This document shows, in pieces, positions 876 to 45,983 of a stretch of 64,000 bases of DNA (its first letter is position 1; every line of letters starts with the position of its first letter). The notes under the pieces are model-generated. The model searched no databases and was not told the DNA's origin. It worked only from the letters and a program-made list of their open reading frames with translations. The DNA comes from Rhizophagus irregularis (taxonomy: Eukaryota; Glomeromycota; Glomeromycetes; Glomerales; Glomeraceae). Location: assembly GCF_026210795.1 (NCBI RefSeq), contig NC_089448.1:1364001-1428000 (forward strand), in the 5' to 3' direction. A program made the position numbers and the translations under genes.

Positions 876-1995
876 TTTGTCAAAAATTAGTTTCTTTGTC
901 AGCACAGGGTTGATATTTTGTTGGTCACATGTTTTAAGTTTAGTGTAGTTTTAAAAAATTTTTTTTTTTTTTATTGGCTTTTTTTTATAAACAAATTTTG
1001 TAGAGAATTTTTATTTTTAATATAGGCAAAGGCTTAGTTTGATAGAATTTCTTTGGGAATTTTTTTAATAAGATTTTTTTTGATAAAAAATTTCGTTAGA
1101 AAATTTTTTTTCATTGATAGGAACATTTCTGAGTTTTTTTTTTGATGATAATTTCGTTAAAAACTTTTATTTGATAGAAATTTTATTGGAGAATTTTTTT
1201 TTTGATAAGATTTTTTTTTTGATATGTACTTAACAATTTTTTTTGACAGGAGAGATTTTTTTTTTTGATAAAGAATTAATTGAGAATTTTTTTTTTTTTG
1301 CAGAAAATTATTTGAAGAATTTTTTTAATAGGGAAGATTTTTTTTTTGATAGATAATTTCGTTACTAGAAAATTTTTTTAACAAGTGAGATTTTTTTTGA
1401 TAGAGAATTTCGTTAAGAATTTTTTTTTAATAGGAGGGAGTTTTCCTTGATAAAGAATTCTTTTGGGAATTTTTTTTAATAAGTGAAAGTATTTTTTGAC
1501 GGAGAATTTTATTAGAGAATTTTTTTTTTGATAAAAATTTCATCATAGAATTTTTTTTTAATAGGTAAGATTTTTTTTTTTTGATAGATCATTTCATTAA
1601 TAATTTTTTTAACAGGAGATTTTTTTTTTGATAGAAAATTTCGGTAAAGAATTTTTTTTTTAATAGGAGGGAAGTTTTTTTTTGATAGAAATTCTTTTGA
1701 GAACTTTTTTTAATAGGTAAAGAATCTTTGAATTTTTTTTTAATAGGGAAAATGTATTTTTTTGATGGAAGATTTTCGTTAGAAATTTTTCTTAATCAGG
1801 GATATTTTTTTTGATTGAGAATTTCATTAGAGAATTGTTGGTTGAAAAGTCTTTTTATTTTTTTGATGGAGAATTTTGTTAGAAGTCTCAATAGAAAATT
1901 TTATTGAAAATAGTTTTTTATTTAATAAGGGTATCGAGAATTTTGGCTTGAAATTTTTTTTTTTAATAAAGAATTTCATTAGAGATCTTTTTTTA
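650..1995. repeat. Left arm of a long inverted repeat (partner 18,720-20,300)
   Basis: The stretch is T-rich with a recurring GAATTTTTTTTGATA pattern, a degenerate tandem repeat of about 45-50 bases. Read backwards it matches 18,720-19,800 through many distinctive points, for example GTTGGTTGAAAAGTC at about 1,837, CTTAATCAGGGATA at about 1,792 and GGTATCGAGAATTTTGGC at about 1,928, each found in reverse complement in the same order on the right. The arms are about 1.35 and 1.6 kb. The right arm ends at about 20,352 with GGCTTGCCATA. On the left a similar TGGCGTGCCATA lies at about 647, but the sequences just inside the two ends differ, so the left terminus is uncertain. Confidence 0.8.
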
Positions 1996-2246
1996 TAAAA
2001 TTAAAAAAAATACTAAATTACATTAATAAGATTAAGATAAAATTAAAAAAAAACTATGATAGAATCCTTAATAGCATAATAAATTAAGCAAATTTTATAT
2101 ACTAGTAAAGCTCCGCATGAGCCGACATAAATTAAAAAGTTAATAATGTTAACTTTAAGAAAAGTATATAGCAGAAATTTGTTTGAAGTATTTTTTCTTT
2201 TTATCATTAATTGGAAACATTTTTGAAAATCTACTATTTTAAATAC

Positions 2247-4743
2247 TTTTTTTTTTTTTTTTTTTTTTTTGGTAGGCAAAGGGCGCAAAGTGCATATTTA
2301 TTTATTAAAGAGAATCTAGTACAGAGTGCCAATTTACAGATAGAAGGTCTATAGTAAAAACTATGTGACAACAAATCTTGTAAAAAACCTTAGTAAAGAA
2401 TTAAACACGTAAAACCTTACCAACAGCAACCAAAGTTAAAGTAAAATAACAAAAAAGTGACTAAACTCCACTAAACTAATAATGGAAACAACAAGAAACG
2501 GTTGTAATAATTATATCTTACCCACCCGGTTCACAACTACTGTAAAATCCAGGATTTCTTTACCAAATAAAATATACTCTTTGACACCCTCCAAATCTTC
2601 ATATCTTCTGAACAGATTAATAGGGCGTTGTAAAATATCTTCTTGTTTTTCTTTACCAACGTTACTATCAGACTTCTTTTTATCTTTTTCAGTAATCCCA
2701 TGATGTTTTTCTATAATCTTTAACTTCTCACAACGAAGTAGCCAAATGTGCTGTTTTGTTTCATCCATAACATATTGTAAAAGCTCCGTCCCCAAATTGA
2801 CTATATTTTTCTTACCAATAACTTCCAATTTTTCAATATAGTCATATAATTGTTTTGGAAAAATACCTTTAATTAGATCTATAAAATTAAATTTATCTTT
2901 TCTAAATTTAGGGAAAAAAATATCAAATATGTTAATATCTGTTAGTATTTTATTTTCATCAACAGTAGCGCCATATTCTTTTAAAAGTCTTATTAGTTTG
3001 TCTATCATTCTTTTGATGATTTGTTTAAGTATTTTCCTATTATGTCTACATGTCCAAACATGGTAAAAATCTTCTTTTTTTTTGTAGCAAAAAACACATT
3101 TAAAATTTTGATATATTTCATATGAAGATTTTTTCATTTGTTCGATAGTAGGAATTTCTTTGATTAAACGTTGTATTTTCATCCTCTTTTGTTTACAAAT
3201 AAATTTATCCGTCTTATAAGTAGTTTCTCCTATTAATTGCTTATTAATGTATGAAAATACTATTTCCCATTTAACATCTAGCAATCGATATCTCCAATTT
3301 CTGTTTAAATTTAAGAATTTTTCGAGACCCTGTGTTCTAGTTAACAATCTTATAAATCTTCTTAAATTCATTTCTATTATATGGTCATTCCACATGATTG
3401 GAAATTTATATTGTTCTGTATTGTATATAACTAGAGTATTAGCTAATCTATCTTCCATGTCATACCAGCCTCTGATTTCTTCATCTAATTTGTTATGTAA
3501 CTTATTATTTGAATGAGACTTGACTTTAATCACATCTAGCTGTTGTGTAAAACTATCTAATATTTCTTTAATATTAAACCAAAGAGCGTTATTCTTGTCA
3601 AACTTTAAAATATCCCTTGTTGTTGTTGACAACCATTTATTCGTTAAGAGCTCGTAATTCTTAATTACATTTGAACTATCTGTATATATTATAAAATTTT
3701 TATCTTCGTTAATTAATAATAATGCAACAAAAAAGGCCATGGTTTCTGCTTTTGTTGATGTAAGCCATTGTTCTATCGTTGAAAAATATTTATCTATCAA
3801 TCTTTCTTTATCATCATAGATTGTTATTCCAAATATTGATTTAATGTTTTCACTTCCATTATCTATTACTGATCCATCTATATATACGTGGATGTTGTTT
3901 GAATTATCTAACTTTATTCTATCTTTAATCTGTTTAATCCGTTGGTACGAGATGTTATACCTATTTCCTTTAGCTAAATACTTATCTATATTATCTCCAT
4001 TAATTGGTATTTCATATTGAATCATTCTTCCATTATCTAATCTATGTTCTATAATATTACTATTAAAAGCGTAATTATATCTCAAAACTTCGTCATAAAA
4101 ATTAGCACTGATACCCTCATAATAGTATGTATTTTTCTGTAATCTCTTTGAATGGTGTTGTTTATTCCATCTATTTGGTGAAAGCAAAAAAGTACTATCT
4201 ATACGTTCTATTATTAAACATTTACTTTTGACTTCCTTTTTGAACACTTCAGCATTTAAAGTTCCCAATTCACAGCCTTCACATTTTCTTAATATAATAT
4301 TTTTTTCAAAATCATCTGTTAATGTTTCGAAGTGATTTAAGTATATTATTTTGCTATCCACGTTTGTTTTAATTACCCTACCAAAAATTGTACGATTCTG
4401 AAATGGTCCCCTAGTTATTCTTGAAACAACTGTCGCGCCTTTTTCAGGTAAAATTGTGGCTGGTAAAAGAATTGTCCCTTTTAAATTATATATTTCATCT
4501 ATAGCTAACATATCATTATGAATTTGTGCTTTAATCTTGAAACTAATCTTAGAGCAAGAGAGATCTATTATTATCCTTTCGTAAGACTTTCTATTTTTTT
4601 GTGACATGCGTTTTGTGCTAATCAGTTTTGTATATCTTTTTAATTCCATTTCCTCAATCGATAGCAAATAATTTTTATTTAATGTTGTTATTTGATCTAT
4701 AAAAATTAAATTATTTTCCTGTAACATATTAAAGTTTTTTATA
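2247..4743 (-). mobile_element. 5'-truncated LINE (non-LTR retrotransposon) copy with poly(A) and target-site duplication
   Basis: The element lies on the minus strand. Its 3' end is a poly(A) tract, seen as the T run at 2,247-2,271, about 240 bases beyond the stop codon of its ORF. The 15-base sequence TACTATTTTAAATAC occurs immediately outside both ends, at 2,232-2,246 and 4,744-4,758, followed by TT on the right; this is a typical LINE target-site duplication. The 5' end comes only 16 bases before the ATG of the ORF, and the coding part holds RNase H and a zinc motif but no reverse transcriptase, so the copy is almost certainly 5'-truncated. The intact ORF and clean duplication suggest a fairly recent insertion. 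Confidence 0.85.
2511..4727 (-). CDS. C-terminal part of LINE polyprotein: RNase H domain plus CCHC-like zinc motif
   Basis: The ORF encodes 738 aa. Residues about 278-430 look like a type I RNase H: VYIDGS (first Asp, about 283), KAETMAF (Glu, about 323), IIYTDSSNV (Asp, about 345) and a later DMEDRLAN segment that carries the last acidic residue. About residue 545 the motif CVFC, then HVWTC about ten residues on, resembles the zinc motif found at the C-terminus of LINE polyproteins (zf-RVT type). The first 270 residues are not recognised and contain no YADD box. RNase H would degrade the RNA strand of the RNA/DNA hybrid during target-primed reverse transcription. The frame is uninterrupted, but as the element lacks reverse transcriptase this is at best a dead-on-arrival copy or a domesticated fragment. 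The ATG is the first in frame and may not be the original start. Confidence 0.75.
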   Translation of the reverse strand: MLQENNLIFIDQITTLNKNYLLSIEEMELKRYTKLISTKRMSQKNRKSYERIIIDLSCSKISFKIKAQIHNDMLAIDEIYNLKGTILLPATILPEKGATVVSRITRGPFQNRTIFGRVIKTNVDSKIIYLNHFETLTDDFEKNIILRKCEGCELGTLNAEVFKKEVKSKCLIIERIDSTFLLSPNRWNKQHHSKRLQKNTYYYEGISANFYDEVLRYNYAFNSNIIEHRLDNGRMIQYEIPINGDNIDKYLAKGNRYNISYQRIKQIKDRIKLDNSNNIHVYIDGSVIDNGSENIKSIFGITIYDDKERLIDKYFSTIEQWLTSTKAETMAFFVALLLINEDKNFIIYTDSSNVIKNYELLTNKWLSTTTRDILKFDKNNALWFNIKEILDSFTQQLDVIKVKSHSNNKLHNKLDEEIRGWYDMEDRLANTLVIYNTEQYKFPIMWNDHIIEMNLRRFIRLLTRTQGLEKFLNLNRNWRYRLLDVKWEIVFSYINKQLIGETTYKTDKFICKQKRMKIQRLIKEIPTIEQMKKSSYEIYQNFKCVFCYKKKEDFYHVWTCRHNRKILKQIIKRMIDKLIRLLKEYGATVDENKILTDINIFDIFFPKFRKDKFNFIDLIKGIFPKQLYDYIEKLEVIGKKNIVNLGTELLQYVMDETKQHIWLLRCEKLKIIEKHHGITEKDKKKSDSNVGKEKQEDILQRPINLFRRYEDLEGVKEYILFGKEILDFTVVVNRVGKI

Positions 4744-6154
4744 TACTATTTTAAATACTTAAGATATTTATGCAAAAATTGTCTGGCCTGATTTAGAATT
4801 TAATTTTGATGATCACAAATCGGCAACTTTAATTGCTATATTTGTCAAATTTTACCCGAATTTTTATGGCAAGCCGTACTGGTCAAAAGGTTGATAACTT
4901 TTCATCATGTTTCATGATGATTTTTCATCATGTTTCATGATAACTTTTCATCATGTTTCATGATGACTTTTCATCATGTTTTATGATAACTTTTCATCAT
5001 GTTGACATGATGACATTTCATCATGTTGATCATATTTTTCATCATATTTTATGATGGTTTTCACCATGTGACATGAAATTTTTTCATCATGTGTTGAATA
5101 ATCTTCATCATGTTTCCTAATATGAAATTTTAACTAACCAAAAATGTCTTACCAAACTACTGGTTTTTTGATGTTCAGATTTAGAAAATAAGAAATTTTT
5201 TTTTTACAAACTTAGAAATTTACCGATTTTCTGGTATTTTGCCATTACACAAATATATATCACATAAAAAATTTTATCACATCACGTTAACAGTATATGA
5301 ACAAAAGAAAAATAATTCAATAAAAACAATACATATACATAAATATAGGTTGTAAAATTTTTCGTATGGGAAGAGTTCGTATGGGATATCTTTGATAGAA
5401 AATATCTTTTTTGAGATTTTTTGAGTTCGTATGGGAAGAGTTCGTATGGGACTTTTTAATAAAGATTTTCTTTTTGTAGGGTTCGTATGGGATATTTTTA
5501 ATAAAAATTTTTTTTTTTTTTTTTTTTGAGATTTTCTTAGAGTTCATATAAGAGGATGTCTTTGATAGAAGAGTTTTTTTTTTGAGTTCGTATGGGATAT
5601 TTTAAATAAAAAATTTTTTTTTTGAGATTTTCTAAGATTCATATAGGATATTTTTGATAAAGATTTTTTTTTTGAGATTTTCTTAGAGTTCATATGGGAG
5701 GATGTCTTTGACAGAAAAGCATTTTTTTGAGAGATTCTAGGGTTCGTATGGGATATTTTAAATAAAAATTTTTTTTTTCGAGATTTTCTAAGATTCATAT
5801 AGGATATTTTTGATAAAGATTTTTTTTTTGAGATTTTCTTAGAGTTCATATGGGAGGATGTCTTTGACAGAAAAGCATTTTTTTGAGAGATTCTAGTGTT
5901 CCGTCATATGGGATATTTTAAATAAAATTTTTTTTTTTGAGATTTTCTAAGATTCATATAGGATATTTTTGATAAAGATTTTTTTTTTGAGATTTTCTTA
6001 GAGTTCATATGGGAGGATGTCTTTGACAGAAAAGCATTTTTTTGAGAGATTCTAGGGTTCGTATGGGATATTTTAAATAAAAATTTTTTTTTTTTGAGAT
6101 TTTCTAAGATTCATATAGGATATTTTTGATAAAGATTTTTTTTTAGATGGTTTT

Positions 6155-18055: not shown

Positions 18056-18660
18056 ATGAAAGGGAAAAAAAAGAGTAATGAGAAGTGATAGGAAACAAAA
18101 AGGAGAAATAGGACATGATGAGAGACGAAAAGGAGTGATGGGAGATGAAAAGAAGTGATTGGAGACAAAGAGGAGTGATGGGAGATAAAAAAAAAGTGAT
18201 GGGAAGATTAAGAGGAGTGATGGGAGACAAAAGGAAGTGATGAAAGACGAAGAGGAGTGATGGGAGACGAAAAGAAGTGATGGGAGACGAAGAGGAGTGA
18301 TGGGTGACGAAGAGGAGTGATGGGAGATAAAAAGGAGTGATGGGAGACGAAAAGAAGTGATGGGAAGATTAAGAGGAATGATGGGAGACGAAAAGAAGTG
18401 ATGGGAAGATTAAAAGGAGTGATGGGAGACGAAAAGGAGTGATAGGAGACGAAAAGAAGTGATGGGAAGATTAAGAGGAGTGATAGGAGATGAAAGGGAG
18501 CGATGGGAGACAAAAAAGAGTGATGGGAGACGAAAAGGAGTGATAGGAGACGAAGAGGCGTGATGGGAGACAAAAAGAAGCAATGGGAGACGAAAAGGAG
18601 TGATGGGAGACAAAAAGGAGCGATGGAAGATTAAAAGAAGTTATGGGATGACGAAGAGGA
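18056..18660. repeat. 20-bp purine-rich minisatellite
   Basis: About 30 imperfect copies of GGAGTGATGGGAGACGAAAA. Purines lie almost entirely on the plus strand. Overlapping minus-strand frames (SPITPFRLPSLLF and similar) are translations of this repeat. Confidence 0.9.
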
Positions 18661-18719
18661 GTAAAAATTTATTAAAATTGTAAAATTTAATAAAAAATTT
18701 CCAATAAATTTTCAATCAA

Positions 18720-20352
18720 TTTTTTATAAAAAAAAAAGATTCCTAATGAAATTCTTTATTAAAAAAAAAATTTCAAGCCAAAATTCTCAATACCCTTATT
18801 AAAAAAAAACTATTTTCAATAAAATTTTCTATTGAGACTTCTAACAAAATTCTCCATCAAAAAAATAAAAAAATTTTTCAACCAACAATTCTCTAATGAA
18901 ATTCTCAATCAAAAAAAATATCCCTGATTAAGAAAAATTTCTAACGAAAATCTTCCATCAAAAAATACATTTTCCCTATTAAAAAAAAATTCAAAGATTC
19001 TTACCTATTTAAAAAAGTTCTCAAAAGAATTTCTATCAAAAAAAAACTTCCCTCCTATTAAAAAAAAAATTCTAAAAAAAAAATTCTTTACCGAAATTTT
19101 CTATCAAAAAAAAAATCTCCTGTTAAAAAAATTATTAACGAAATGATCTATCAAAAAAAAAAACTTACCTATTAAAAAGAAAATTCTATGTTGAAAATTT
19201 CTATCAAAAAAAAAAAAAAATTCTCTAATAAAATTCTCCGTTAAAAATACTTTCACCTATTAAAAAAAATTCCAAAAGAATTCTTTATCAAGGAAAACTC
19301 CCTCAGTCCTATTAAAAAAAAATTCTTAACGAAATTCTCTATCAAAAAAAATCTCACTAGTCAAAAAAATTTTCTAATAACGAAATTATCTATCAAAAAA
19401 AAAAAATCTTCCCTATTAAAAAAATTCTTCAAATAATTTTCTACAAAAAAAAAAAAATTTTCAATTAATTCTCTATCAAAAAAAAAAATCTCTCCTGTTA
19501 AAAAAAATTGTTCCAACAAATTAAGTATATGTCAAAAAAAAAATCTTATTAAAAAAAAATTCTCCAATAAAATTTCTATCAAATAAAAGTTTTTAATGAA
19601 ATTATCATCAAAAAAAAAAACTCTGAAATGTCCCTATCAATGAAAAAAATTTTCTAATGAAATTTTTTATCAAAAAAATCTTATTAAAAATTCCCAAAGA
19701 AATTCTACCAAACAAAGCCTTTGCCTATATTAAAAATAAAAATTCTCTACAAAATTTGTTTATAAAAAAAAAAAAAATTTTTTTAAAACTACGCTAAACT
19801 TAAAAACATGTGACCAACAAAATATCAACCCTGTGCTGACAAAGAAACTAATTTTTGACAAAGATAAAATTATCGAGTATAGTTGGATTAAATCAAACAC
19901 AGTTGGACAAAAACATCAAGTACAGACGGACAAAAATATCAAGCACAGATGGATAAAAACATAAAGCACAGACGGATAAAAATGTCAAGCATGGTCAGAT
20001 AAAACCATCAAGCACGTACAGATAAAACCATCAAGCACGTACAGATAAATATCAAGCACGTACAGATAAAACATCAAGCACGGTACAGATAAAACATCAA
20101 GCACATACAGATAAACATCAAGCATGAACAGATAAACATCAAGCATGAACAGATAAAAATATCAAGCACGTGATAGATAAACATCAAGCATGAACAGATA
20201 AAAATATCAAACACGTACAGATAAATATCAAGCACGGACAGATGAATATCAAGCATGAACAGGTAAAATGTCAGGCACGGTGTAACATTTTGTCAATCCA
20301 TGCTTGATTTTTCACCCGCCCAATGCCTGATAGTTTAGTCCAGCTTGGCTTG
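18720..20352. repeat. Right arm of the long inverted repeat, ending GGCTTGCCATA
   Basis: Reverse-complement partner of 650-1,995. It comprises an A-rich degenerate repeat (TCTATCAAAAAAAAATTC) to about 19,800, then the ATCAAGCACGTACAGATAAA minisatellite to about 20,290, then a unique terminal 60 bases ending in GGCTTGCCATA at 20,352. The next base starts coiled-coil coding sequence, so 20,352/20,353 is an insertion junction. The coiled-coil gene is not found left of 650, so either the left side was lost or the arms belong to more than one event. Confidence 0.8.
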
Positions 20353-27241: not shown

Positions 27242-28032
27242 CCATGAAATATCAAATTACTTACAAGAAGAAAAAAAAGAATTGGAAGATGAACTAGAGA
27301 CACTAAAAAAGGAACTAAATCATGAAATAAAAACATTAATCAAAAATAAAGAAGAAAAACAACAAAAGATAAATGAGTTAGCTGAAGAAATGGAAAAAGA
27401 AAAATCAAGGCTAGTAAAAGTAAAAGAGGAATTAATTAAGGCTGATAAAATATTAGAAAATACTCAAATTGAGATAGAACTTAGAAAAAATAGTGAAGAG
27501 CGGGAATTAATTATTTCTAAGGTTAAAGAATTGAAGAATAATATCAAACAACTGAAAATTCAAAATGAAGAAAGTAAACAAAGCTTAATTGACACACAAA
27601 GTAAATTGTCTGAAATTAAAGCCATACCACTTCCCACTGATAAAATAGACAAATTTACCAAAACCAAAATTAAACAAAAAAAAAAGAGTTAGAAAATTTA
27701 AAGGAAGAATTGAAAAGTGATCAAAAGCAATTAGAAAATATGGAAAAGAAACTTAATAATTTGTTGGGTTAATAGGTAAATTTACTGTTAATATTAGTAG
27801 CAAAAACATAACTAAACTAGGAAAATTGGTTAAAGAAAAAGAAGAATTAATTGAAAAAATCCACAAATTAAAAAAAAATAAACTAGCAAAAAAAAAAAAT
27901 AAAAACTCTTACGGAGAAAATTCAAGATGAAGACTGGAAGAAGAAGTGCCAAGGACTTCAGGAAACAATAGATAAGAAAAATCAGATAATAAAAGAATTT
28001 ACTAAAAAACTACCTAGAAAAATATTGCTAAT
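27242..28032 (+). pseudogene. Coiled-coil/AIG1-like GTPase gene relic, segment 3 (coiled coil up to P-loop)
   Basis: Coding resumes at the right end of the DDE-type transposon with EISNYLQEEKKELEDELE and stays open to about 27,690, all Lys/Glu-rich coil. Frameshifts near 27,690, 27,775 and 27,900 move the coil between frames (EELKSDQKQLENMEKKL, GKLVKEKEELIEKI). The last part reads KIQDEDWKKKCQGLQETIDKKN and then KLPRKILL before the CACTA-like insertion. These last residues are the strand that leads into the GTPase P-loop, whose remainder lies at 31,972. Confidence 0.75.
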
Positions 28033-28569
28033 CACTGGTCGAAATCGTTTCTTTCGGCATTAATACCTTTCGTCAAAAGTTCGTCATCATCATCATGTGA
28101 TTCGTTAAACATTCGGCCAATTATAAAAATCGAAAAAAAATTAGCATAAATCAACTGGTCGATTTTTGGTTAATTTTTGGTTGAGTTGTAACATAAAAAA
28201 AAACCATAAATCGACCAATATTTTTTTTTGATCGATTTTTATTAATAGCAACAATTGACTTTACGATTTTTAACAATCTTGAACAAAATCAAAAATATCG
28301 AACCATCTAAATAATAGCCAAATACTTGTTGAAAAAGTAAAACTTAAATTAGTAATGATTTACATTCGACCCCCTAAGATTTAAATAGACTTTTGCCATA
28401 AAAGTCTAAATTAGTATCTTTTTAATCAGGTTCGGACTCTTTTTTGAGTTTGTTTTTTTGTAGTTTCTTGGAATTTATTTTTGTAGGTCGCCTCAGTTCG
28501 TTTTGACTTCCGGACTTATTTTTTTTTCTTTTTGTAAGTTATTTCAGTCTGGTTTCTTCTTTGACTTGT

Positions 28570-28638
28570 GTCCCGAAGGCTCAACGGTAGAGCATACAAT
28601 TCAGTCGTAAGGTGCAGGTTCGACTCCTGCTCGGGACA
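28570..28638 (+). tRNA. tRNA-like sequence, copy 1
   Basis: The 69-base cloverleaf has a 7-bp acceptor stem (GTCCCGA with TCGGGAC) and discriminator A, a 4-bp D stem (GCTC with GAGC), a perfect 5-bp T stem (GCAGG with CCTGC) and a consensus B box GGTTCGACTCC. The anticodon arm is irregular: TAC pairs with GTA around a 9-base loop, so no anticodon can be assigned. It is therefore a tRNA pseudogene or a tRNA-derived SINE head rather than a normal tRNA. Confidence 0.4.
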
Positions 28639-29051
28639 ATAATATCCTTTATAGGTTGTTCCATTTCGGCTCTCGAACCAGGATTTTCTATTTTGTAGGT
28701 TCTTCGTTTTGACTCTCGGATTTGGACATTTTTGACTTCCAGATTTGGAATTTATTTTTTATAGGTCATTCATTTCGGTTTCTGGACTTTGGCTTGGAAT
28801 TTCTTTTTTGTAGATATTTACGTTTCAGTTTCCGGACTTGGAATTTTTTTATCTTGTAGGTTTCTTCGTTTCAGTTTTCGGACTTGGGCTTGGAATTTAT
28901 TTTCATTTTGGTTTTCGGACTTGGAATTTCTTTTTTGTAGGTCAGTTTCCAGACTTAAGTTTAACTCCTATCAGTAAAGAGGTTTTTCTTTTGTAGGTAC
29001 GCTTCGATTTTGGGGTTTTGGAGTTTTGGGAGGATAGCGTTTTACCATTGC

Positions 29052-29120
29052 GTCCCGAAGGCTCGATGGTAGAGCATACGATTCAATTGTAGGGTGCAGG
29101 TTTGACTCCTGCTCGGGACA
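29052..29120 (+). tRNA. tRNA-like sequence, copy 2
   Basis: Repeat of copy 1 exactly 482 bases downstream. The B box is changed to GGTTTGACTCC and the anticodon arm differs slightly. Probably not a working tRNA. Confidence 0.35.
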
Positions 29121-29533
29121 ATAATATCCTTTATAGGTTGTTCCATTTCGGCTCTCGAACCAGGATTTTCTATTTTGTAGGTTCTTCGTTTTGACTCTCG
29201 GATTTGAACATTTTTGACTTCCAGATTTGGAATTTATTTTTTATAGGTCATTCATTTCGGTTTCTGGACTTTGGCTTGGAATTTCTTTTTTGTAGATATT
29301 TACGTTTCAGTTTCCGGACTTGGAATTTTTTTATCTTGTAGGTTTCTTCGTTTCAGTTTTCGGACTTGGGCTTGGAATTTATTTTCATTTTGGTTTTCGG
29401 ACTTGGAATTTCTTTTTTGTAGGTCAGTTTCCAGACTTAAGTTTAACTCCTATCAGTAAAGAGGTTTTTCTTTTGTAGGTACGCTTCGATTTTGGGGTTT
29501 TGGAGTTTTGGGAGGATAGCGTTTTACCATTGT

Positions 29534-29602
29534 GTCCCGAAGGCTCGATGGTAGAGCATACAATTCAATTGTAGGGTGCAGGTTTGACTCCTGCTCGGGA
29601 CA
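29534..29602 (+). tRNA. tRNA-like sequence, copy 3
   Basis: A third copy another 482 bases on. Here the anticodon arm closes as TACAA-TTCAA-TTGTA, a 5-base loop two bases short of normal. The B box is again GGTTTGACTCC. Confidence 0.35.
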
Positions 29603-30480
29603 ATAACTGATTCATATTTGCTCTTTGAAGGTGCTTCAATTCGAACTTGGAGTTTAGATTTTTCTTTGTAGGTTACTCCGATTTATTGATTTTCTTTTTT
29701 ATAGGTACTTTTGATGTTTGCTTTTGATTTTCTTTTTGTAGGTTTTTTCAACAATTTTTTTTCTTTGTAGGCCACTTCGATTCGGCATTATTTCCTCTTT
29801 TGTAGTTCGATTTGATTTTTGGAATTCGGATTTTTGTTTCTTAATTATCAATTTTAATGAAACGTTCAGTGTTTTTCTTAGGCGGTTCTTTTGGTCTCTT
29901 TGGACGCAAAATTTCAGTAAATTATTTAAATTTTTTTTCCTTAATTGTTTTTGTTTTAACGAACGTTTTCTAACAGTTCGTTTACTTTCTTCATCTAGGC
30001 GTTTCTCTAAGGTCTCTTTGGAAATGTTGGCTTTATTATTTTTATTCGACTTTAACTTTTTTAGGTTATGGGATTCTATTTTTGTAAGTTGCTTAGACTT
30101 CGATTTGACTCGACTTAGGACTTTCTTTATAGATTCGACTGGGATTTTCTTTTTTATAGGTTGCTTCGGTTAACTGACTTCAACTCTTGTTCCATTTTTG
30201 TAGTTATTTTAGGTACTTGATTCGATTCAACCTTGGCTCTGGATTCAGAATTTTCTTTTTGTAGATTCGATTACGGCTTTGAATTTGGATTATCTCTTTT
30301 GTAGGTTGACTTTAGATTCAGATTCACTTTTTGTAGATTGCCTCAAATTTGATTTCAACTTTGATCTTGGACTTTTGGGAATTTTTTTTTTGTAGGATGC
30401 TTCGATTCGACTTCAGATTGGTTGGAATTTTTTATTTACTACGACGGACTTGTACTTTATTTCTTTAGATGCGAAAGACC
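29603..30480 (+). repeat. Degenerate TTTTTGTAGGT repeats within the CACTA-like element
   Basis: The motif (T-rich)TTTTTGTAGGT, followed by TNCTTCGATTCGACTT, recurs every 50-110 bases from about 28,440 to 30,400. It looks like an older, diverged form of the cassette array downstream; acceptor-like borders are kept but donors are mostly lost. No long open frame is present. Confidence 0.6.
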
Positions 30481-30504
30481 GTTAGCTTAAAAATACAAAA
30501 ATTT

Positions 30505-30562
30505 GTCTTAGACTAGAATCGAACTAGTCAAAGCAAACGAATGCTTTCCACCAGGATAAGAC
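30505..30562 (-). other. Truncated tRNA-like sequence lacking a D arm
   Basis: On the minus strand GTCTTA pairs with TAAGAC as acceptor, AAAGC with GCTTT as an anticodon-like stem with an 8-base loop, and ACTAG with CTAGT around TTCGATT as T arm. The D arm is reduced to CCTGGTGG. At 58 bases this is a relic or a tRNA-derived piece. Confidence 0.3.
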
Positions 30563-30659
30563 TTTTAAAAGAGGTGGTTGGTTTAAGACGGACTTGGATT
30601 TTAGGTATGGTAAATTTAAACAGACTTGAGGGTTAATTTTTTCATTAAAAAACATTAAA

Positions 30660-31440
30660 GTTTTTTTTTTCTTCTACTTTGTAGGTTTCGGCCTTCGGAT
30701 CTTGGGCATTGGATATATGGGTAAGTTTCAGAGTGAAATCTTCGAAACCTTTTTATTAAAAATTATTTTTTTTAAATTTTTTTCTTCTATTTGTAGGTTT
30801 CGACTTCCGTTGGATATATGGGTGAGTTTCAAAGTGAAAGAATCGAAACTCTTTAAAAAAATATTTTTTTAATTTTTTTTCTTCTTTTTTGTAGGTTTCG
30901 GCTTTCGGTTATTGGGCGTTGAATAGGTGAGTTTTGAAAACTTCGAAACTCTTTAGAAATTATTTTTTTAATTTTTCTTTCTATTTTGTAGGTTTCAGCT
31001 TCTGGCTCTTAGACTTTGGATAATATATAGGTAAGTTTCGAAGTGAAGGAATTGAGACTAAACTCCTTAAAATTATTTTTAATTTTTTTTTCTATTTGTA
31101 GGTTTTCTTGGGCTTTGGATATATGGGTGAGTTTTGAAAACTTCGAAACTTTTAAAAATTATTTTTTTTAAATTTTTTTTTTCTAATTTGTAGGTTTCGG
31201 CTTCCGGCTCTTGGGCTTTAGATCAGTGAGTTTCGAAGAATTACTTCGGAACTTTCTTTTTAAAAAGTTCAAATTTTATTGATTTTTTGGGGTTTATGGA
31301 TGATACTTAAACGGAACTTTAAAGGTACTCCCCTTTGAAAATTCAATTTTGTTTTTTCTTAACGAAATGCAAATGATGTTTTGATTTTGTTCTTTTGTAG
31401 ATTTCTGACGATTTTGCTACTCCAGAACTGGTGAGTTATT
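30660..31440 (+). repeat. Tandem array of micro-exon-like cassettes (array A)
   Basis: Seven consecutive units each contain a pyrimidine-rich tract ending TTTGTAG, a short block and a GTAAGT or GTGAGT donor. The blocks are 30,685-30,720 (36 nt), 30,797-30,821 (25), 30,895-30,926 (32), 30,992-31,030 (39), 31,102-31,126 (25), 31,194-31,225 (32) and 31,401-31,430 (30). Units are about 90-110 bases and share GTTTCGGCTTCNGG and TTGGATATATGG. If all blocks are joined, the frame starting at the second base of block 1 is open through all 219 bases and stops right after block 7, while the other two frames stop in block 3. The flanking intron-like spacers are 70-175 bases, normal for this genome. Whether they are spliced is unknown. 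Confidence 0.6.
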
Positions 31441-31971
31441 GAATTGAATTCAAAAACAATTTTTTATTCCATTTTTTAACTAACTATTGTACTTTATTTC
31501 CTCTTTATTAGATTCCAGTTCTGATTGGCGAATTTTTTATTTCATCTTTTTTTTTAAGTTCGTGAGGAAATTTTATAGATTTCTTGATAACATTCGGATA
31601 GTACTGTAGATAGTAATTAATTAGAAATAATAGATAGATAGATATATGTATGTTATGCCTTTATGTAGTTTTATTAATAAATTGAAATTAAATTATGCTT
31701 AAAAATCAGAAATAAATATAAAATTAACTATTTCTGCATCAACTAAAAATCGGCCAGTTCTAGACCAAAATTAAGCCTAAAACTGGCCAATCGATTTTTT
31801 GCCGAAATGGAATTGTAACGAATTTTTGCCAATTTTTGATTGCCAAGTGGCAGGCGAACTGTGCAAATCGTCCATAATAATTTTGACGATTTTTTTGGCA
31901 ATGATCAGCCGAATTTAGACCAACTTTCGTCCAACATTCATCAATTTGAAATTTGGATGAAATGACCAGTG

Positions 31972-32733
31972 AATTGGTCGTACAGGTAGTGGTAAATCTA
32001 CTTTGGCTAATGTATTGACTGGTACTAACCAATTTAAAGAAAGCAACTATTCTATTAGCCAAACTAAAGCAATCCAAAGATGTCAATTTGTTGAGGAGGA
32101 AATAACCTATGAAGTAATTGATACTATTGGTTTAAATGATACTAAACTAAATCGAGAAGATATTTTATATAAATTAGTTGAGTTAGCTCATGAATTAAAA
32201 GATGGTTTGCATCAAATTCTTTTAGTTACTAATGGTCGCTTTACTGAGGAAGAAATCCAAGTTTATCAAATATTAGAAACAGTTCTTTTTGATGAAAATG
32301 TGAAAAACTATACTACAATTGTACGAATTAACTTTGAGAAATTTGAAAATGAGGAAGAATGCCAAAAAATCAAAGATTATTAATTGAAAGGAAATCACAA
32401 ATAATGACCATAATTAAAAGCTGTAATTTTTTTATTTATCTAGATAATCCTTCAAATGATATTAGCAAAAGAAAAAAGTCAAAAATTATTCTATTAACCC
32501 ATTTGAATAAGCAAATAGGAGTTTATAGGCCAAGTAACTTAGAAAAATTAAATGAAAGAATTATGGATTATATGAAATATGAAAACCGTGAACTAGTTAT
32601 TCAGGAAATGGATAAGCATGTTTTGAAATTTGAAGATAAATTATCTAATTTAGGACAAATTGGCTCATTTATTTCTGGACTAGTAGCAGTAGCAACTATT
32701 ATTATTCCATTGGTTTCTTGTAATATAATGTAG
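31972..32733 (+). pseudogene. Coiled-coil/AIG1-like GTPase gene relic, segment 4 (GTPase domain)
   Basis: The sequence resumes in the P-loop: GRTGSGKSTLANVLTG (Walker A), then SISQTKAIQ (probable switch I region), then EVIDTIGLNDT (Walker B/G3, DxxG) and HQILLVTNGRFTEEE. This is the AIG1/GIMAP-type P-loop GTPase pattern that is abundant in arbuscular-mycorrhizal fungi. A frameshift near 32,360-32,380 moves the rest into another frame (from about 32,362), which continues KIILLTHLNKQIGVYRPSNLEKL, the conserved tail of these proteins, and ends with a hydrophobic segment (FISGLVAVATIIIPLVSC) that could anchor the protein in a membrane. With four insertions and several frameshifts the gene is dead. 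Confidence 0.8.
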
Positions 32734-35726: not shown

Positions 35727-36124
35727 CACTAGTCGAAAAAGGACAATTCGGCCTAAATTTGACCAGGTCGAATATAGGTCGATTAATGGTCTAACCTGTG
35801 TCAAATTGAGGTCGAATTTTCAGGTGCATTTAGGGTGCCAATCGTCCCAAATTCGGACTAATTATTCGACCATTATTTAGGTTTAAATTGACCAATATTC
35901 GACCTTAAAACTTTAAGCCGAATTATGGTCTAATAACAACCCATTTATTTATGAATTTATTTTGATTTTTTTTATCAAATTTATTAAATAAATGTATTTA
36001 TTAATGCTTAAATACTTTATAATTATATTATTATTATTGCATCTATCTAATTTACAAAAAATATTGCTAATTCAAATACAATTCCACAATTACATGATTC
36101 ATGTATTCGTATATACGAATCTTT

Positions 36125-37390
36125 GATTGTTCTTTAGCAATTCACCCGAACCTATAAAAAAAAGAGAAGAACGGTTAGTAACCGTTCATAATATTAAAAA
36201 AAATAAGAAAAAAAACCAAGATTCGTACTTACTTACAAATCTTTGGTTTTTTCTGTTTTTCAGAAGACACCCGAGACACCCGAGACCTAAAAAGAAAAGA
36301 AAAGAACGGTTATTAGTAACCGTTCATAATAATATTAAAAAAAAATCAAAAAAAATAAACCAAGATTCGTACTTACGAATCTTGGTTCTTCTTTTCCTGA
36401 AGGTCGGAAGCCCACTCCACCCGATCCTAAAAAAAGAAAGAACGGTTATTAGTAACCGTTCATTAATATTGAAAAAAAAAAAATTAAACCAAGATTCGTA
36501 CTTACTTACGAATCTTGGTTTCTTGGTTTTCCTTTCTTCGGAAGCCCGCCAGATCCTAAAAAAAAAGAAAAGAACGGTTAGAACTGTTCATATATTAAAA
36601 AAAAAACAAAAAAATTAAACCAAGATTCGTACTTACTTACGAACCTTGGTTTCTTGGTTTTCCTTTCTTCGGAAGCCCGCCAGATCCTAAAAAAAAAGAA
36701 AAGAACGGTTAGAACCGTTCATATATTAAAAAAAAAACAAAAAAATTAAACCAAGATTTGTACTTACTTACGAACCTTGGTTTCTTGGTTTTCCTTTCTT
36801 CGGAAGCCCACCAGATCCTAAAAAAAAGAAAGAACGGTTATTAGTAACCGTTTGTAATATTTTTTTTAAAAACAATAAAAAAAAATCCAAGATTCTTATG
36901 AATCTTTGGAATTTTCCCGTTCTTCGGAACATGGAAGCCCACCCGAACCTATAAAAAATAAAAGAACGGTTATTAGTAACCGTTCGTAATATTTTTTTTA
37001 AAAAAATAAAAAAAAATCCAAGATTCTTACGAATCTTGGAATTTCCCGTTCTTCGGAACACGGAAGCCCATCCGATCCTAAAAAAAAAGAAAAAGAACGG
37101 TTATTAGTAACCGTTCATAATATTAAAAAAAAAATAAAAAAAAATAAGATTCGTATGTGAATCTTTGGATTTTCGTTCTTCGGAAGCCCTCCCGAACCTA
37201 TAAAAAAAAATACAAGAACGGTTAGTAAACCGTTCGTAATAATAAAAAAATAACAAAAATAAATTAAAGATTCGTACTTACAAATCTTTGGGTTTTCCGT
37301 TCTTCGGAAGCCCACCCGAACCTAAAAAAAGAAAGAACGGTTAGTAAACCGTTCATAACGATAATATTTAAAAAAAAAAAAAAAAAAATA
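36125..37390 (-). repeat. Tandem array of exon-like cassettes (array C, minus strand)
   Basis: About ten units of 105-125 bases. On the minus strand each has a T-rich run ending TTTTTAG or TTTATAG, a 40-50-base block starting GTTCGGGTGGGCTTCCGAAGAACGG or GATCTGGTGGGCTTCCGAAG, and GATTC-GTAAGT or a close variant. Some donors are damaged (ATAAGA near 36,900, CATACG near 37,150). Each spacer contains the palindrome AACGGTTATTAGTAACCGTT and GATTCGTANNTACGAATC. Two further blocks with good TTTTGTAG acceptors lie upstream at 37,890 (donor GTAAGT) and 38,015 (donor GTATAT). The block sequence is unrelated to arrays A and B, but the architecture is the same. Confidence 0.6.
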
Positions 37391-37439
37391 TTTGATTCGT
37401 AATACAATACTTACGAATCTTAAAATACTCTTTTGGAAA

Positions 37440-37790
37440 TCCATCTCCTTTCATTTTACCCTTCCCCTTTCGTTTTCCCCTTTCATTTTCCCCTTTCGTT
37501 TTCCCCTTTCGTTTTCCCCTTTCGTTTTCCCTTTCTTTTCCGTTTTCCTTTTCCTTTCATTTTACCTTATCCCTTTCGTTTTTAGCTTCCCCTTTCGTTT
37601 TTAGCTTCCCCTTTCGTTTTTAGCTTCCCCTTTCGTTTTTAGCTTCCCTTTCGTTTTTAGCTTCCCTTTCATTTTTTTCGCTTCCCTTTCGTTTTTAGCC
37701 TCCTCTTTCATTTTTTCGCTTCCCCTTTCATTTTTCGCTTCCCCTCTCATTTTCTCTTCCCCTTTCGTTTTCACTTCCTCTTGAAACCTA
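37440..37790. repeat. CCCCTTTCGTTTT minisatellite
   Basis: First a 12-base unit (CCCCTTTCGTTTT) and then a 20-base unit (CCCCTTTCGTTTTTAGCTT) repeated in pyrimidine-rich sequence. The overlapping Lys/Glu-rich frame on the minus strand is its translation. Confidence 0.85.
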
Positions 37791-38340
37791 TAAAAAAACA
37801 AGAACGGCTGGTAAACCGTTCTATAATATTAAAAAAAATCCACTATTCGTAATAATACTTACGAATCTCAGTCACGTCTTGGATCTACAAAAGCAAAAAA
37901 TGAAAACGTTAGTAAAACGTTTCGTTAAAAAACAACAAAATAAAATTTGAAGGTATATATATACCTTCGAAATAGGAGTCCGGCCTTCTAAATGGGCGTC
38001 TTGGACCTACAAAAGAAAAAAAACTGAGGGACGAAGGGAAAGGGGAAAGGGGAAAAGGATAAGAAAAGTAAAGGGACGAAGGGAAGTAAAAGGAGGGAAA
38101 GAGGAACGAAGGGAAAGGGGAAGGGGAAGAAAGAAAATTAAAAAAAGTTTAAAAAAGAATGCAATAAGATGATCCTTTTTTAAACTTTTAATACGCGTAA
38201 CGCATAACGCGTAACGTTTATTCAACAAGGTTGAATATATGTCTAATCATAGATCATTACTAATTGAAGTCGAATTTTTTAATTTTAGTCAAATATAGGC
38301 CGAATTGTATTAAGGCCGAATATTCCTTTTTCGACTAGTG

Positions 38341-41657: not shown

Positions 41658-44600
41658 TTAATAATCCTCAATCATACAATCAAACCCCTGAGATTCTTCT
41701 TGAACTAACATTTCAGTAAGTTTGCGACTTGTATAATATGCTTGTGGATGAGATTGCATAATAAAAACATTTGCTTGTTCTTGTAATAAATCTTTGTCTG
41801 CCTCTACAAATTCAAACATATCATTTTTCAATTGATTATCAGTAATAGGTACTAAATATTTATAATTCCCATCCCTATTTATTTCATAATATTTATTAAT
41901 ACATCTAATCCATTCAGATATAATATTTTCAAGCATTATTATAGTTGGTCTATTAGAAGGATTTAAATCCCAACATTTTTTCATTAATTCTATATAACAT
42001 TTTGGAGTATTTTTCATGATTTTAGGACGTTTTCCTTCATAAACACTCAAGATAAAATGATAATCATGTGCTTCATAGTTAAATGGAGGAATACCTGATG
42101 TAAATTCCCACATTATCATTGAAAAGCTATAAATATCACTTGCTGGAGTATAGGGTTTTTTTCTTAATATTTCAGGTGCCATGTAAGGTAAAACTCCATA
42201 AATTTCATTAACTTTATTATCAGAGTCTTGTAAATCACTTATAGGTTTGCATAATCCTAAATCAATAATAAATAACTCATTGTAATTATCTGACACTAAA
42301 ATATTACCATCATGAAAATCACCATGAGTTAAATTTGATTCATGGATTACTTTAAGCCCTAATATTATTTTTTTCAATAATTGTAACTTTTCTTGCCACT
42401 TAAATTTAATTATATCAGATAAACATTTTCTCAAACTTCCTTTCTTTGCATAACTCATTATTATTACATAATTTAAATTTGGATCTTGGGTAATTCCAAA
42501 AAATTGAATAAATTTCGAAAATGACTTTTTCTGACAATTATAATGATATTTCCACTATATAAATAACAAAAAAATTATTAAACTTTTGCAAAAGGAAATA
42601 AAATTGGCTATTAAATATAAATACTATACCTCATCCAGAAATTCACTATTTAAACTTGATGAATTACTAAGTGTTTTAAGAACAACCTCATAACATGTTT
42701 GTCTATTCCATTGTTGTTTGTCAAAATTCCAACTAAAAATAGGCCCATCTGACCAGATAGCTTTATGAATTTCACTAAATCCTCCTTTAGCATAATAGTC
42801 AATACTTGATAAATTATTGTAAGGTATCCACTCTAAAATTTCATAACTATTTTTAACATTTATTTGTGCTTCTTGAATAAATTTATCAATAAATTTATTT
42901 TTACTTGTCCACTTTGAAAAATCTTGTTGAAATCGTTTAGTATTACATTGTTGGCACCATTGATAATCAGTATTTGGTAGCTTGCATTCATTACAAAATT
43001 CAACTTTATTTTTAGAATTTGGTTTGTTACTTTTTACTACTATTTGATGCCAATAAAAGGCCCTTTCTAAATTCCTTTCTGTTCCTTCTCCATTTCTATA
43101 ACATGCAGCTAAACTATACATTGCATCAATATGATTTTTTTCTGCTGCTTTTTGATACCAATAAAAGGCTTTTTCTAAATTCTTTTCAGTTCCTTCTCCA
43201 TTATAATATCTACTAGCTAGATTAAACATTGCATTAATATGATCTTTTTCTGCTGCTTTTTGATACCAATGAAAGGCTTTATCTAAATTCTTTTCTGTTC
43301 CTTCTCCATTATAATAGTGATTAGCTAAACCATACATTGCATCAATATGATCTTTTTCTGCTGCTTTTTGACACCAATGAAAGGCTTTTTTTAAATTCTT
43401 TTCTGTTCCTTCCCCATTTCTATAATATACAGATAAACCATACATTGCAATAATATAATCTTTTTCTGCTGCTTTTTGACACCAATAAAAGGCTTTTTCT
43501 AAATTCTTTTCTGTTCCTTCTCCATTTCTATAATGTACCGCTAAACTATACATTGTATTGATATGATCTTTTTCTGCTGCTTTTCGACACCAATGAAAGG
43601 CTTTTTTTAAATTCTTTTCTGTTCCTTCCCCATTATAATAGCAATTTTCTAAACCATACATTGCATCAATATGATCTTTTTCTGCTGCTTTTTGACACCA
43701 ATGAAAGGCTTTTTCTAAATTCTTTTCTGTTCCTTCTCCATTTCTATAATATACAGATAAACCATACATTGCAATAATATAATCTTTTTCTGCTGCTTTT
43801 TGACACCAATAAAAGGCTTTTTTAAAATTCTTTTCTGTTCCTTCTCCATTTCTATAATATACAGATAAACCATACATTGCAATAATATAATCTTTTTCTG
43901 CTGCTTTTTGACACCAAAGAAAAGCTTTTTCAAAATTCTTTTCTGTTCCTTCTCCATTTCTATAACGTACAGCTAAACTATACATTGCATCAATATGATC
44001 TTTTTCTGCTGCTTTTTGATACCAATAAAAGGCTTTTTCAAAATTCTTTTCTGTTCCTTCTCCATATCTATAATATACGGCTAAACTATACATTGCAATA
44101 ATATAATCTTTTTCTGCTGCTTTTTGACACCAATGAAAGGCTATTTCTAAATTCTTTTCTGTTCCTTCTCCATTTCTATAATATACAGATAAACCGTACA
44201 TTGCAATAATATAATGTTTTTCTGCTGCTTTTTGACACCAATGAAAGGCTTTTTCTAAATTCTTTTTTGTTCCTTCTCCATTTCTATAATATACAGCTAA
44301 ACCATACATTGCAATAATATAATCTTTTTCTGCTGCTTTTTGACACCAATGAAAAGCTTTTTCAAAATTCTTTTCTGTCCCTTCTCCATTTCTATAACAT
44401 GCAGCTAAACTATACATCGCATCAATATGATTTTTTTCTGCTGCTTTTTGATACCAATGAAAGGCTTTTTCTAAATTCTTTTCTGTTCCTTCTCCATTAT
44501 AATAGTGATTAGCCAAACCATACATTGCAATAATATAATGTTTTTCTGCTGCTTTTTGACACCAATGAAAGGCTTTTTCTAAATTCTTTTCTGTTCCTTC

Positions 44601-45983
44601 TCCATTTCTATAATATACAGCTAAACTATACATTGCAATAATATAATCTTTTTCTGCTGCTTTTTGACACCAATGAAAGGCTTTTCCTAAATTCTTTTCT
44701 GTTCCTTCTCCATTTCTATAACGTACAGCTAAACTATACATTGCATCAATATGATCTTTTTCTGCTGCTTTTTGATACCAATGAAAGGCTTTTTCAAAAT
44801 TCTTTTCTGTTCCTTCTCCATATCTATAATATACAGCTAAACTATACATTGCAATAATATAATCTTTTTCTGCTGCTTTTTGACACCAATGAAAGGCTTT
44901 TTCTAAATTCTTTTTTGTTCCTTCTCCATTTCTGTAATATATAGCTAAACCATACATTGCAATAATATAATCTTTTTCTGCTGCTTTTTGACACCAATAA
45001 AAGGCTTTTTCTAAATTCTTTTCTGTTCCTTCTCCATTTCTATAACGTAAAGCTAAACTATACATTGCATCAATATGATCTTTTTCTGCTGCTTTTTGAT
45101 ACCAATGAAAGGCTTTTTCAAAATTCTTTTCTGTTCCTTCTCCATATCTATAATATACAGCTAAACTATACATTGCAATAATATAATCTTTTTCTGCTGC
45201 TTTTTGACACCAATAAAAAGCTTTTTCTAAATTCTTTTCTGTTCCTTCTCCATTTCTATAATGTAAAGCTAAACTATACATTGCAACAATATGATCTTTT
45301 TCTGCTGCTTTTTGATACCAATGAAAGGCTTTTTCAAAATTCTTTTCTGTTCCTTTTCCATATCTATAATATACAGCTAAACTATACATTGCATCAATAT
45401 GATTTTTTTCTGCTGCTTTTTGATACCAATAAAAGGCTTTTTCTAAATTCTTTTCTGTTCCTTCTCCATTTCTATAATATACAGCTAAACTATACATTGC
45501 AATAATATGATCTTTTTCTGCTGCTTTTTGACACCAATAAAAGGCTTTTTCTAAATTCTTTTCTGTTCCTTCTCCATTTCTATAATGTACATCTAAACTA
45601 TACATTGCAATAATATAATCTTTTTCTGCTGCTTTTTGACACCAATGAAAGGCTTTTTCTAAATTCTTTTCTGTTCCTTCTCCATTATAATAGTGATTGG
45701 CTAGATTAAACATTGCATCAACGTGATCTTTTTCTGCTGCTTTTTGACACCAATAAAAGGCTTTTTCAAAATTCTTTTCTGTTCCTTTTCCATTCTTATA
45801 ACAGCTGGCCAAATTAAACATTGCTTCTTTATCCCCATTTTCTGCTAATTTTCCTAAAGAATTAATACATTCTTTACACCACAATTTTTCAGTAAAAAGT
45901 ATATTACAATACGAACAAATTTTGGTGTCTATTGTAACAGTATCTTCATCTGAGATATTTAATTTATTAAGTTCAGTTTCCAT
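41658..45983 (-). CDS. Sel1-repeat protein kinase, two exons, 1,416 aa
   Basis: Exon 1 is 45,983-42,630 (1,118 codons), the intron 42,629-42,555 (75 nt, GTATAG...TATAG) and exon 2 42,554-41,658. Both exons are whole codon numbers. Residues 23-39 form a CX2C-X9-CX2C zinc knuckle, followed by about 26 Sel1-like repeats of 36 aa (GEGTEKNLEKAFHWCQKAAEKDHIDAMYSLA type), then a second CX2C-X9-CX2C knuckle (FCNECK, WCQQCN), then a kinase domain: GGFSEIHKAIW, VVLKTL (Lys), HGDFHDGNIL, IDLGLC in place of DFG, and YMAPEIL. The Gly loop is poor, but the catalytic Lys and both Asp residues are present, so activity is plausible. Sel1 arrays act as protein-protein scaffolds. Such kinases are strongly expanded in Rhizophagus. 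The frame is intact, with no sign of decay. Confidence 0.9.
42624..45900 (-). repeat. 108-bp tandem repeat encoding Sel1 units
   Basis: About 26 near-identical 108-base units in exon 1. Several pairs two or three units apart differ by only a few bases, suggesting recent gain or loss by unequal exchange. Dot plots on either strand will show this as the strongest coding repeat in the window. Confidence 0.9.

Follow-up and report, generated by a model that had tools for sequence, protein, structure and literature searches.

Tandem arrays of exon-intron-like cassettes, possibly spliceosomal, in probably noncoding DNA transposons of Rhizophagus irregularis

A 64,000-nt stretch of the Rhizophagus irregularis genome (NC_089448.1, positions 1,364,001 to 1,428,000; hereafter the window) contains an array of seven micro-exon/intron cassettes of type A (30660-31440, forward strand), identified by motif matching, a sequence profile and simulations. 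The anatomy of this array is real, ordered and unusual. Our leading reading, to which we assign a probability of slightly below one half, is that tandemly duplicated spliceosomal exon-intron cassettes make up the array and, with it, the body of a DNA transposon that is non-autonomous and noncoding. The sequence evidence suggests that such cassette arrays make heavily spliced RNAs coding for no protein. The arrays are probably noncoding, and the odds that they are spliceosomal in life appear about even.

The seven exon-like blocks are located at 30685-30720 (36 nt), 30797-30821 (25 nt), 30895-30926 (32 nt), 30992-31030 (39 nt), 31102-31126 (25 nt), 31194-31225 (32 nt) and 31401-31430 (30 nt), all on the forward strand. 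As described in an earlier note on this DNA, every block is preceded by TTTGTAG and followed by GTRAGT, giving fourteen borders; the donor reads GTAAGT after blocks 1 and 4 and GTGAGT after blocks 2, 3, 5, 6 and 7. Seven cassettes are far beyond chance, as 2000 Markov simulations of the 781-bp region yielded a mean of 0.0035 at order 1, 0.0025 at order 2 and 0.448 (maximum 4) at order 3. The earlier note had set intact borders against diverged spacers. All fourteen borders are indeed intact in the window, but a copy that is 97% identical over the array (L009, on contig C19) has lost one of them, the acceptor of cassette 4 having changed from TTTGTAG to TTTGTAA. Moreover, the spacers are not independent of the blocks: together they make up a single tandemly repeated unit, roughly 100 bp long, with an 84% match over two units; block 7 fits this unit weakly (profile score of 21.5 bits). 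The proposal that the cassettes grew in tandem is supported.

The array lies within a CACTA-like non-autonomous element (28033-31971, forward strand), whose 8-bp terminal inverted repeats, CACTGGTC (28033-28040) and GACCAGTG (31964-31971), are flanked by the 3-bp target site duplication AAT at 28030-28032 and 31972-31974. L009 ends in the same two sequences and is flanked by TTT. CACTR-type terminal inverted repeats with 3-bp duplications, the latter present in five of five CACTA-like copies examined (AAT, TTT, TAA, TTG and GAT), agree with the CACTA-like label of the earlier note as regards ends and target site duplications. No ORF of at least 120 aa is present inside 28033-31971. By sequence, a possible poly(A) signal, AATAAA (31676-31681, forward strand), follows the last cassette; passages of PMC10234402 attribute 56.7% of R. 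irregularis poly(A) sites to AAUAAA.

The element interrupts a reading frame in sense orientation, and both flanks continue this frame, by eye, across the AAT duplication. The interrupted frame presumably encodes an AIG1-like P-loop GTPase, and F-box and Sel1-repeat ORFs are presumably also present in the window. The sense orientation within this host frame, whose family name is our assumption, would accord with splice masking, in which the array would allow the host transcript to lose the insertion, softening the damage. However, splicing would leave behind about 0.5 kb of the element upstream of its first GTRAGT and about 0.45 kb, with AATAAA, downstream of its last acceptor-like site. The host frame would thus not be restored, and masking is a very improbable explanation.

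The 5' part of the window element contains 19 further TTTGTAG acceptor-like sites (28457-30395, forward strand), some of them duplicated within a 482-bp tandem repeat, together with only two GTRAGT (28534 and 30084). These 19 acceptor motifs with two donors count against the spliceosomal reading and favor an untranscribed minisatellite, in which an ancestral intron-containing fragment would have been captured by a transposon and amplified as a satellite, the motifs persisting only because the copies are young or homogenized. The window is, in addition, full of tandem arrays, which points the same way. As separate observations, many of the 19 sites precede exon-like GTTTCRG-type blocks, a pattern resembling a unit from which most of the intron has disappeared, and three tRNA-like genes (28566-29606; ARAGORN: tRNA-SeC, anticodon TCA) reside in the 482-bp repeats inside the element, two of these genes also exceeding the Rfam tRNA threshold. 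Two T-rich arrays with 50-bp units, one at 1.0-2.0 kb and the other at 18.6-19.7 kb, were rejected as cassettes, having 0 and 1 GTRAGT, respectively. They resemble each other (1000-2000, forward strand; 18600-19700, reverse strand) in their units of about 50 bp and in their TTTTGATAG and AATAGG motifs. Another repeat of the window, 25.5 tandem copies of 108 bp (42624-45983, reverse strand), encodes a predicted protein of 1119 aa, which we take to contain Sel1-like repeats.

Cassettes of type A are dispersed over the 146.7-Mb assembly searched (32 contigs). BLAST with the window array recovered at least 114 pieces (best 40 of 138 candidates scored), and an acceptor-plus-exon pattern gave 273 matches at up to three mismatches and 0 for the reversed control. 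About 165 bp at the 3' end of the window element are common to at least 14 of the 25 loci compared (L009-L033). Four or more units occur in 24 of these loci and one in L033, the loci having been chosen by similarity to the whole array. Counted by one exon pattern throughout, arrays in nine loci (L010-L018) contain 9 to 24 cassettes, versus 6 in L009. The unit also builds longer arrays and is found in further copies of CACTA-like type as well as in a family whose 3' ends are Helitron-like. Members of this family (L013-L018) have in common another, sharply bounded element about 4.2-6.4 kb long. At its 3' end, the hairpin GGGGGAC GAA GTCCCCC is followed after 14 nt by CTAG in five of the six copies with long arrays, the end of L016 diverging. 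This 3' end was found at six genome places at up to two mismatches (five exact), of which five are examined loci of the family and one, C1:4883872, lies beside another array. The shared 5' end is TTAGCGATAG, with T or G as the preceding base, and in the five copies with CTAG the next bases are TT; since neither the 5' TC end nor the insertion between A and T of Helitrons was found, the family is only Helitron-like. An insert of about 2.4 kb splits the Helitron-like cassette array of L018 (about 3400-5800).

Further cassette types accompany type A, as the element body of L023 is a chain of types A, B (with GAAATCGGCTCCAGCGTGGATACCGATATTCCAG-like exons) and C. Treating the three as unrelated was rejected, because A and B share a 23-nt intron stretch (87%, E=0.002), whereas A and C match only along T-runs or T/A-runs and no match was obtained between B and C, each comparison being made with one representative per type. 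As A and B share part of their intron, only type C is independent.

Type C is represented in the window by a second CACTA-like element (35727-38340, reverse strand; terminal inverted repeat CACTAGTCGAAAAAGGA, target site duplication TAA), which carries a type-C micro-exon/intron array at 36143-37450 on the same strand, with GTAAGT donors in a hairpin, a TACTAAY-like branch motif in a second hairpin and a TAG acceptor. The ends CACTAGTCG.../...CGACTAGTG are present in this element, L039 and L040, with the duplications TTG and GAT in copies. Its relatives amount to at least 217 BLAST pieces (best 40 of 371 candidates scored), and its terminal inverted repeat pattern matched 74 places at up to three mismatches (reversed control 0), several of which are inverted pairs a few kb apart. 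Eight of nine GTAAG sites in the window array read GTAAGT, and eight of the nine have a branch-like motif whose first base lies 25-32 nt upstream of the end of the acceptor; measured from the donor at eight sites, the motif lies at 52-68 nt and the acceptor ends at 82-93 nt. Among type-C units (221 matches, 209 of them long), CTAAY was detected in 193, GTRAG in 179 and the acceptor pattern in 135 of 209, all counted as pattern matches in units since the masked alignment is unreliable around randomized columns. Donor and acceptor were not among the best-kept columns of that alignment, which is poor around the randomized columns.

Evidence that the splice signals are genuine is stronger beyond the type-A array of the window: type C shares only T-runs with type A and yet has the same signals in the correct order and on the correct strand. 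Type-A units have U2-type GTRAGT donors and polypyrimidine-TAG acceptors. In 11 sequences, the acceptor T[TAC]T[GA]TAG was found in 176 of 180 full-length units (from 197 matches), exact TTTGTAG in 166 and GTRAGT in 161; the border columns of the profile were randomized, yet its 89 seeds were picked by intact borders. A wider set of 26 sequences (326 matches, of which 289 were long, 273 distinct and 259 had letters at both borders) has GT in 227, AG in 229 and both in 212 of the 259 distinct units. As many units are related by descent, these counts are not independent. GTRAGT occurs mainly on the array strand in all 12 array-bearing stretches that we chose among the loci examined (e.g., 29/1, 12/0 and 19/0; weakest 16/5 and 12/3), and TTT[GA]TAG is found at most once on their opposite strand, while the two T-rich window arrays lack this pattern. 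Donors and acceptors alternate more than in shuffled order (0.05 level) in 12 of 15 sequences, which include the 781-bp array itself, also part of another among the 15; the three without significant alternation are the whole window element, the element at 36 kb and L059. In both the strand and the alternation tallies, overlapping GTAAGTAAGT counts as two donors, inflating the type-C donor numbers. In pooled data, the donor-to-acceptor distance has a median of 79 (IQR 76-83, n=219, full ranges up to 307) and the acceptor-to-donor distance a median of 34.5 (n=224), with exon-like blocks mostly of 25-46 nt.

Among the other components of splicing, TACTAAY is absent from the array strand of the window element, L014 and L016, and occurs twice on the non-array strand of the window element, which counts against the spliceosomal reading. 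The genome contains three U1 snRNA matches, and one of the two examined begins with ATACTTACCTG, which is complementary to GTAAGTAT. Thirteen ordinary chaperonin introns, from a rough parse in which several are doubtful, contain GTRAGT once and CTRAY once, which also counts against that reading. Since micro-exons would need strong splice sites, this difference from the arrays nevertheless fits splicing, as agreement and not as proof. Intronless copies were sought as proof of splicing, and the genome yielded only single blocks plus one 3-mismatch match that reads as acceptor context; such absence is no evidence against splicing.

Joining the seven blocks produces one frame that is open from its second base, both other frames stopping in block 3, as the earlier note had stated. 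A protein-coding micro-exon gene, like those of schistosomes, would agree with this frame, with the open frame over eight blocks found by a looser pattern in 28000-32000, and with the 43 of 105 distinct exon-like blocks that are multiples of three. However, the open frame is weaker evidence than the earlier estimate of about 10% by chance implied, given that 23% of the 5040 possible block orders and 8.5% of 5000 letter shuffles are open; the earlier judgment that the borders outweigh the frame is supported. Sampled orders are also open for the eight-block set (16%) and, without exception, for the open six-block set of L009, so that openness does not exceed exon-order permutations. At least three stops interrupt every frame in eight arrays of 10-24 exons (L010, L012-L018), each frame contains 5-17 stops in the seven arrays with 16-24 exons, and the 9-exon array L011 has one stop in each of its two best frames. 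The suggestion that duplication lengthens a protein is not supported, given these long arrays without an open frame and the 62 of 105 exon lengths that break frame. Based on these frame statistics (stops, non-triplet lengths and order permutations), a protein is not the likely product, and a coding gene has hardly any probability.

The evidence for selection on the borders is mixed. When the 22 G columns are ordered by changes on a tree of 273 distinct type-A units, fewest first, the four fixed ones at the borders take places 2, 3, 5 and 8 (p=0.011), with 0.040-0.064 changes per unit versus 0.035-0.172 in 17 other G columns, whereas the border A/T columns are ordinary (0.045 at donor T+2, 0.026 at donor A and 0.037 at acceptor A). 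Of 265 units, 89% retain donor G+1. Six border dinucleotide columns rank 1, 2, 4, 5, 6 and 7 among 51 G/C-containing ones, with neighbors overlapping, and those including the variable R position rank 27 and 29. In four copy pairs, G/C sites changed at 2 of 105 acceptor GTAG and 7 of 162 donor positions, compared with 141 of 1317 in exon plus 5' intron (exons 76/812, 5' intron 65/505), a difference with p=0.002 for the acceptor and p=0.008 for the donor. Relative to G/C sites of outside-unit element sequence (136/2272), however, the borders are not significantly slower (acceptor p=0.087, donor p=0.49), and over all donor sites the figures are 7/360 versus 152/8440 outside-unit sites. This comparison covered columns with local identity of at least 75% and sites placed in the same profile column, and the faster change inside units may be partly due to non-orthologous alignment. 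The pair formed by the window and L009 shows no protection (borders 3/83, rest 85/2812). The border-decay check in other copies, which the earlier note had named as a possible refutation, is mostly negative or split: borders change more slowly than exons and 5' introns but not significantly more slowly than sequence outside the units.

Homogenized young repeats remain a live rival to border constraint. The lack of border protection between recent copies relative to outside-unit sequence, together with the restriction of the conservation excess to border G sites, speaks for an untranscribed minisatellite. In contrast, the G sites that change least include those at the borders, in units from loci that are, L009 apart, mostly 66-79% identical to the window array, and types A and C, which share only T-runs, both have ordered splice signals mainly on one strand. 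We consider the minisatellite a substantial alternative, though one with clearly less than an even chance. Under the reading of spliceosomal cassettes, constraint would have acted in the spreading lineage and given way to neutral decay after insertion, as the split between border tests suggests.

Hairpins provide another possible basis for the conserved anatomy, if a repeated hairpin or palindrome is itself selected, or kept by DNA-level template switching, and the splice motifs are incidental loop sequence. In type C, 14 paired double changes were inferred in the donor hairpin versus 1-3 with shifted partners, and 4 versus 0-1 in the branch hairpin, on a tree of 205 units built without the stem columns. 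Six pairs of the type-C donor stem core are kept in 200-204 of 201-204 units, while GTRAG is kept in only 179 of 209, and the stem survives in some units without GTAAGT; as the stem outlasts the lost donor, the structure itself may be what is selected, or template switching may maintain it. However, outer pairs of this stem are often broken (e.g., 122/198 paired), and in type A, where a stem starts in the donor, pairing is only slightly above independence (159/152.6, 172/162.5 and 171/155.1 for the three most variable pairs), so that a covarying type-A hairpin, convincing by eye, was dropped. The type-A acceptor is also kept though it lies outside the hairpins found. Incidental splice motifs in selected hairpins are an unlikely explanation overall.

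If the cassettes are spliceosomal, their multiplication could proceed through unequal exchange, duplicating whole exon-intron units that each carry a polypyrimidine tract, a TAG acceptor, a short exon and a U1-matching GTRAGT donor. Because each unit would be complete, one transcript across the element could be spliced many times at any copy number, and tandem growth or loss would be tolerated since splicing remains possible whatever that number. No protein would constrain exon length. The elements would then be transcribed and spliced, and the splicing of noncoding RNA would have kept the signals. As speculation, the benefit we favor is that an intron-rich nascent RNA might be handled as an ordinary mRNA precursor and be harder to shut down by small-RNA silencing. 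In Caenorhabditis elegans, the silencing of an intron-containing target by small RNAs depends on the helicase Aquarius, a requirement that disappears once the introns are removed (passages of PMC5554785), and CMC-EnSpm and Helitron are among the superfamilies with more expressed families in colonised roots (passages of PMC11075540).

A broader and rather doubtful proposition is that at least three non-autonomous families of this one fungus, two CACTA-like and one Helitron-like, represent a class of intron-array transposons in which multiple splicing is a selected property. Noncoding cassettes whose U1 sites are nearly perfect, up to dozens per element, would make up their bodies, one type holding donor and branch point in hairpin loops, and spliceosome-loaded nascent RNA may resist small-RNA silencing or premature polyadenylation. 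If spliced, the arrays would be a natural record of introns and exons multiplying jointly by tandem duplication in mobile DNA, outside coding constraint; they would also make it testable whether introns shield transposons from silencing and would show the shortest exon this fungus can define. In practical terms, such arrays may mislead gene prediction and repeat libraries in AM fungi, where two thirds of transposable elements were called unclassified (passages of PMC11075540).

The literature searched, which covered few subscription journals and no bioRxiv preprints, showed no such micro-exon arrays among the entries listed, but several known systems share some of their features. Introners are repeated, similar spliceosomal introns tied to transposable elements and sit singly in many genes, unlike the introns here, which occur with their exons in head-to-tail arrays inside transposons. 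A word search in the available text of an introner paper (PMC9860276) returned no mention of Rhizophagus, Glomeromycota, tandem, CACTA, Helitron or noncoding. Micro-exon genes of schistosomes likewise have many very short exons in series; they are coding, with symmetrical exons, whereas the exon lengths here break frame. Helitrons with internal tandem repeats are known, and L013-L018 have in common with Helitrons a 3' hairpin followed by CTAG (5/6 copies), with TTAGCGATAG instead of TC at the 5' end. SP7-like effectors are also built of repeat units in Glomeromycotina; their repeats are coding, with a conserved intron before the first repeat, and the passages concerned describe no micro-exon array (PMC11333574). 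The closest described case found is soybean Tgm-Express1, which, like the window element, has CACTA-type ends around several exon/intron pieces. According to passages of PMC1947982, the soybean pieces are five unrelated captured host-gene fragments, which the spliceosome uses in many combinations, whereas the elements described here contain tandem copies of a few short cassettes whose splicing is predicted.
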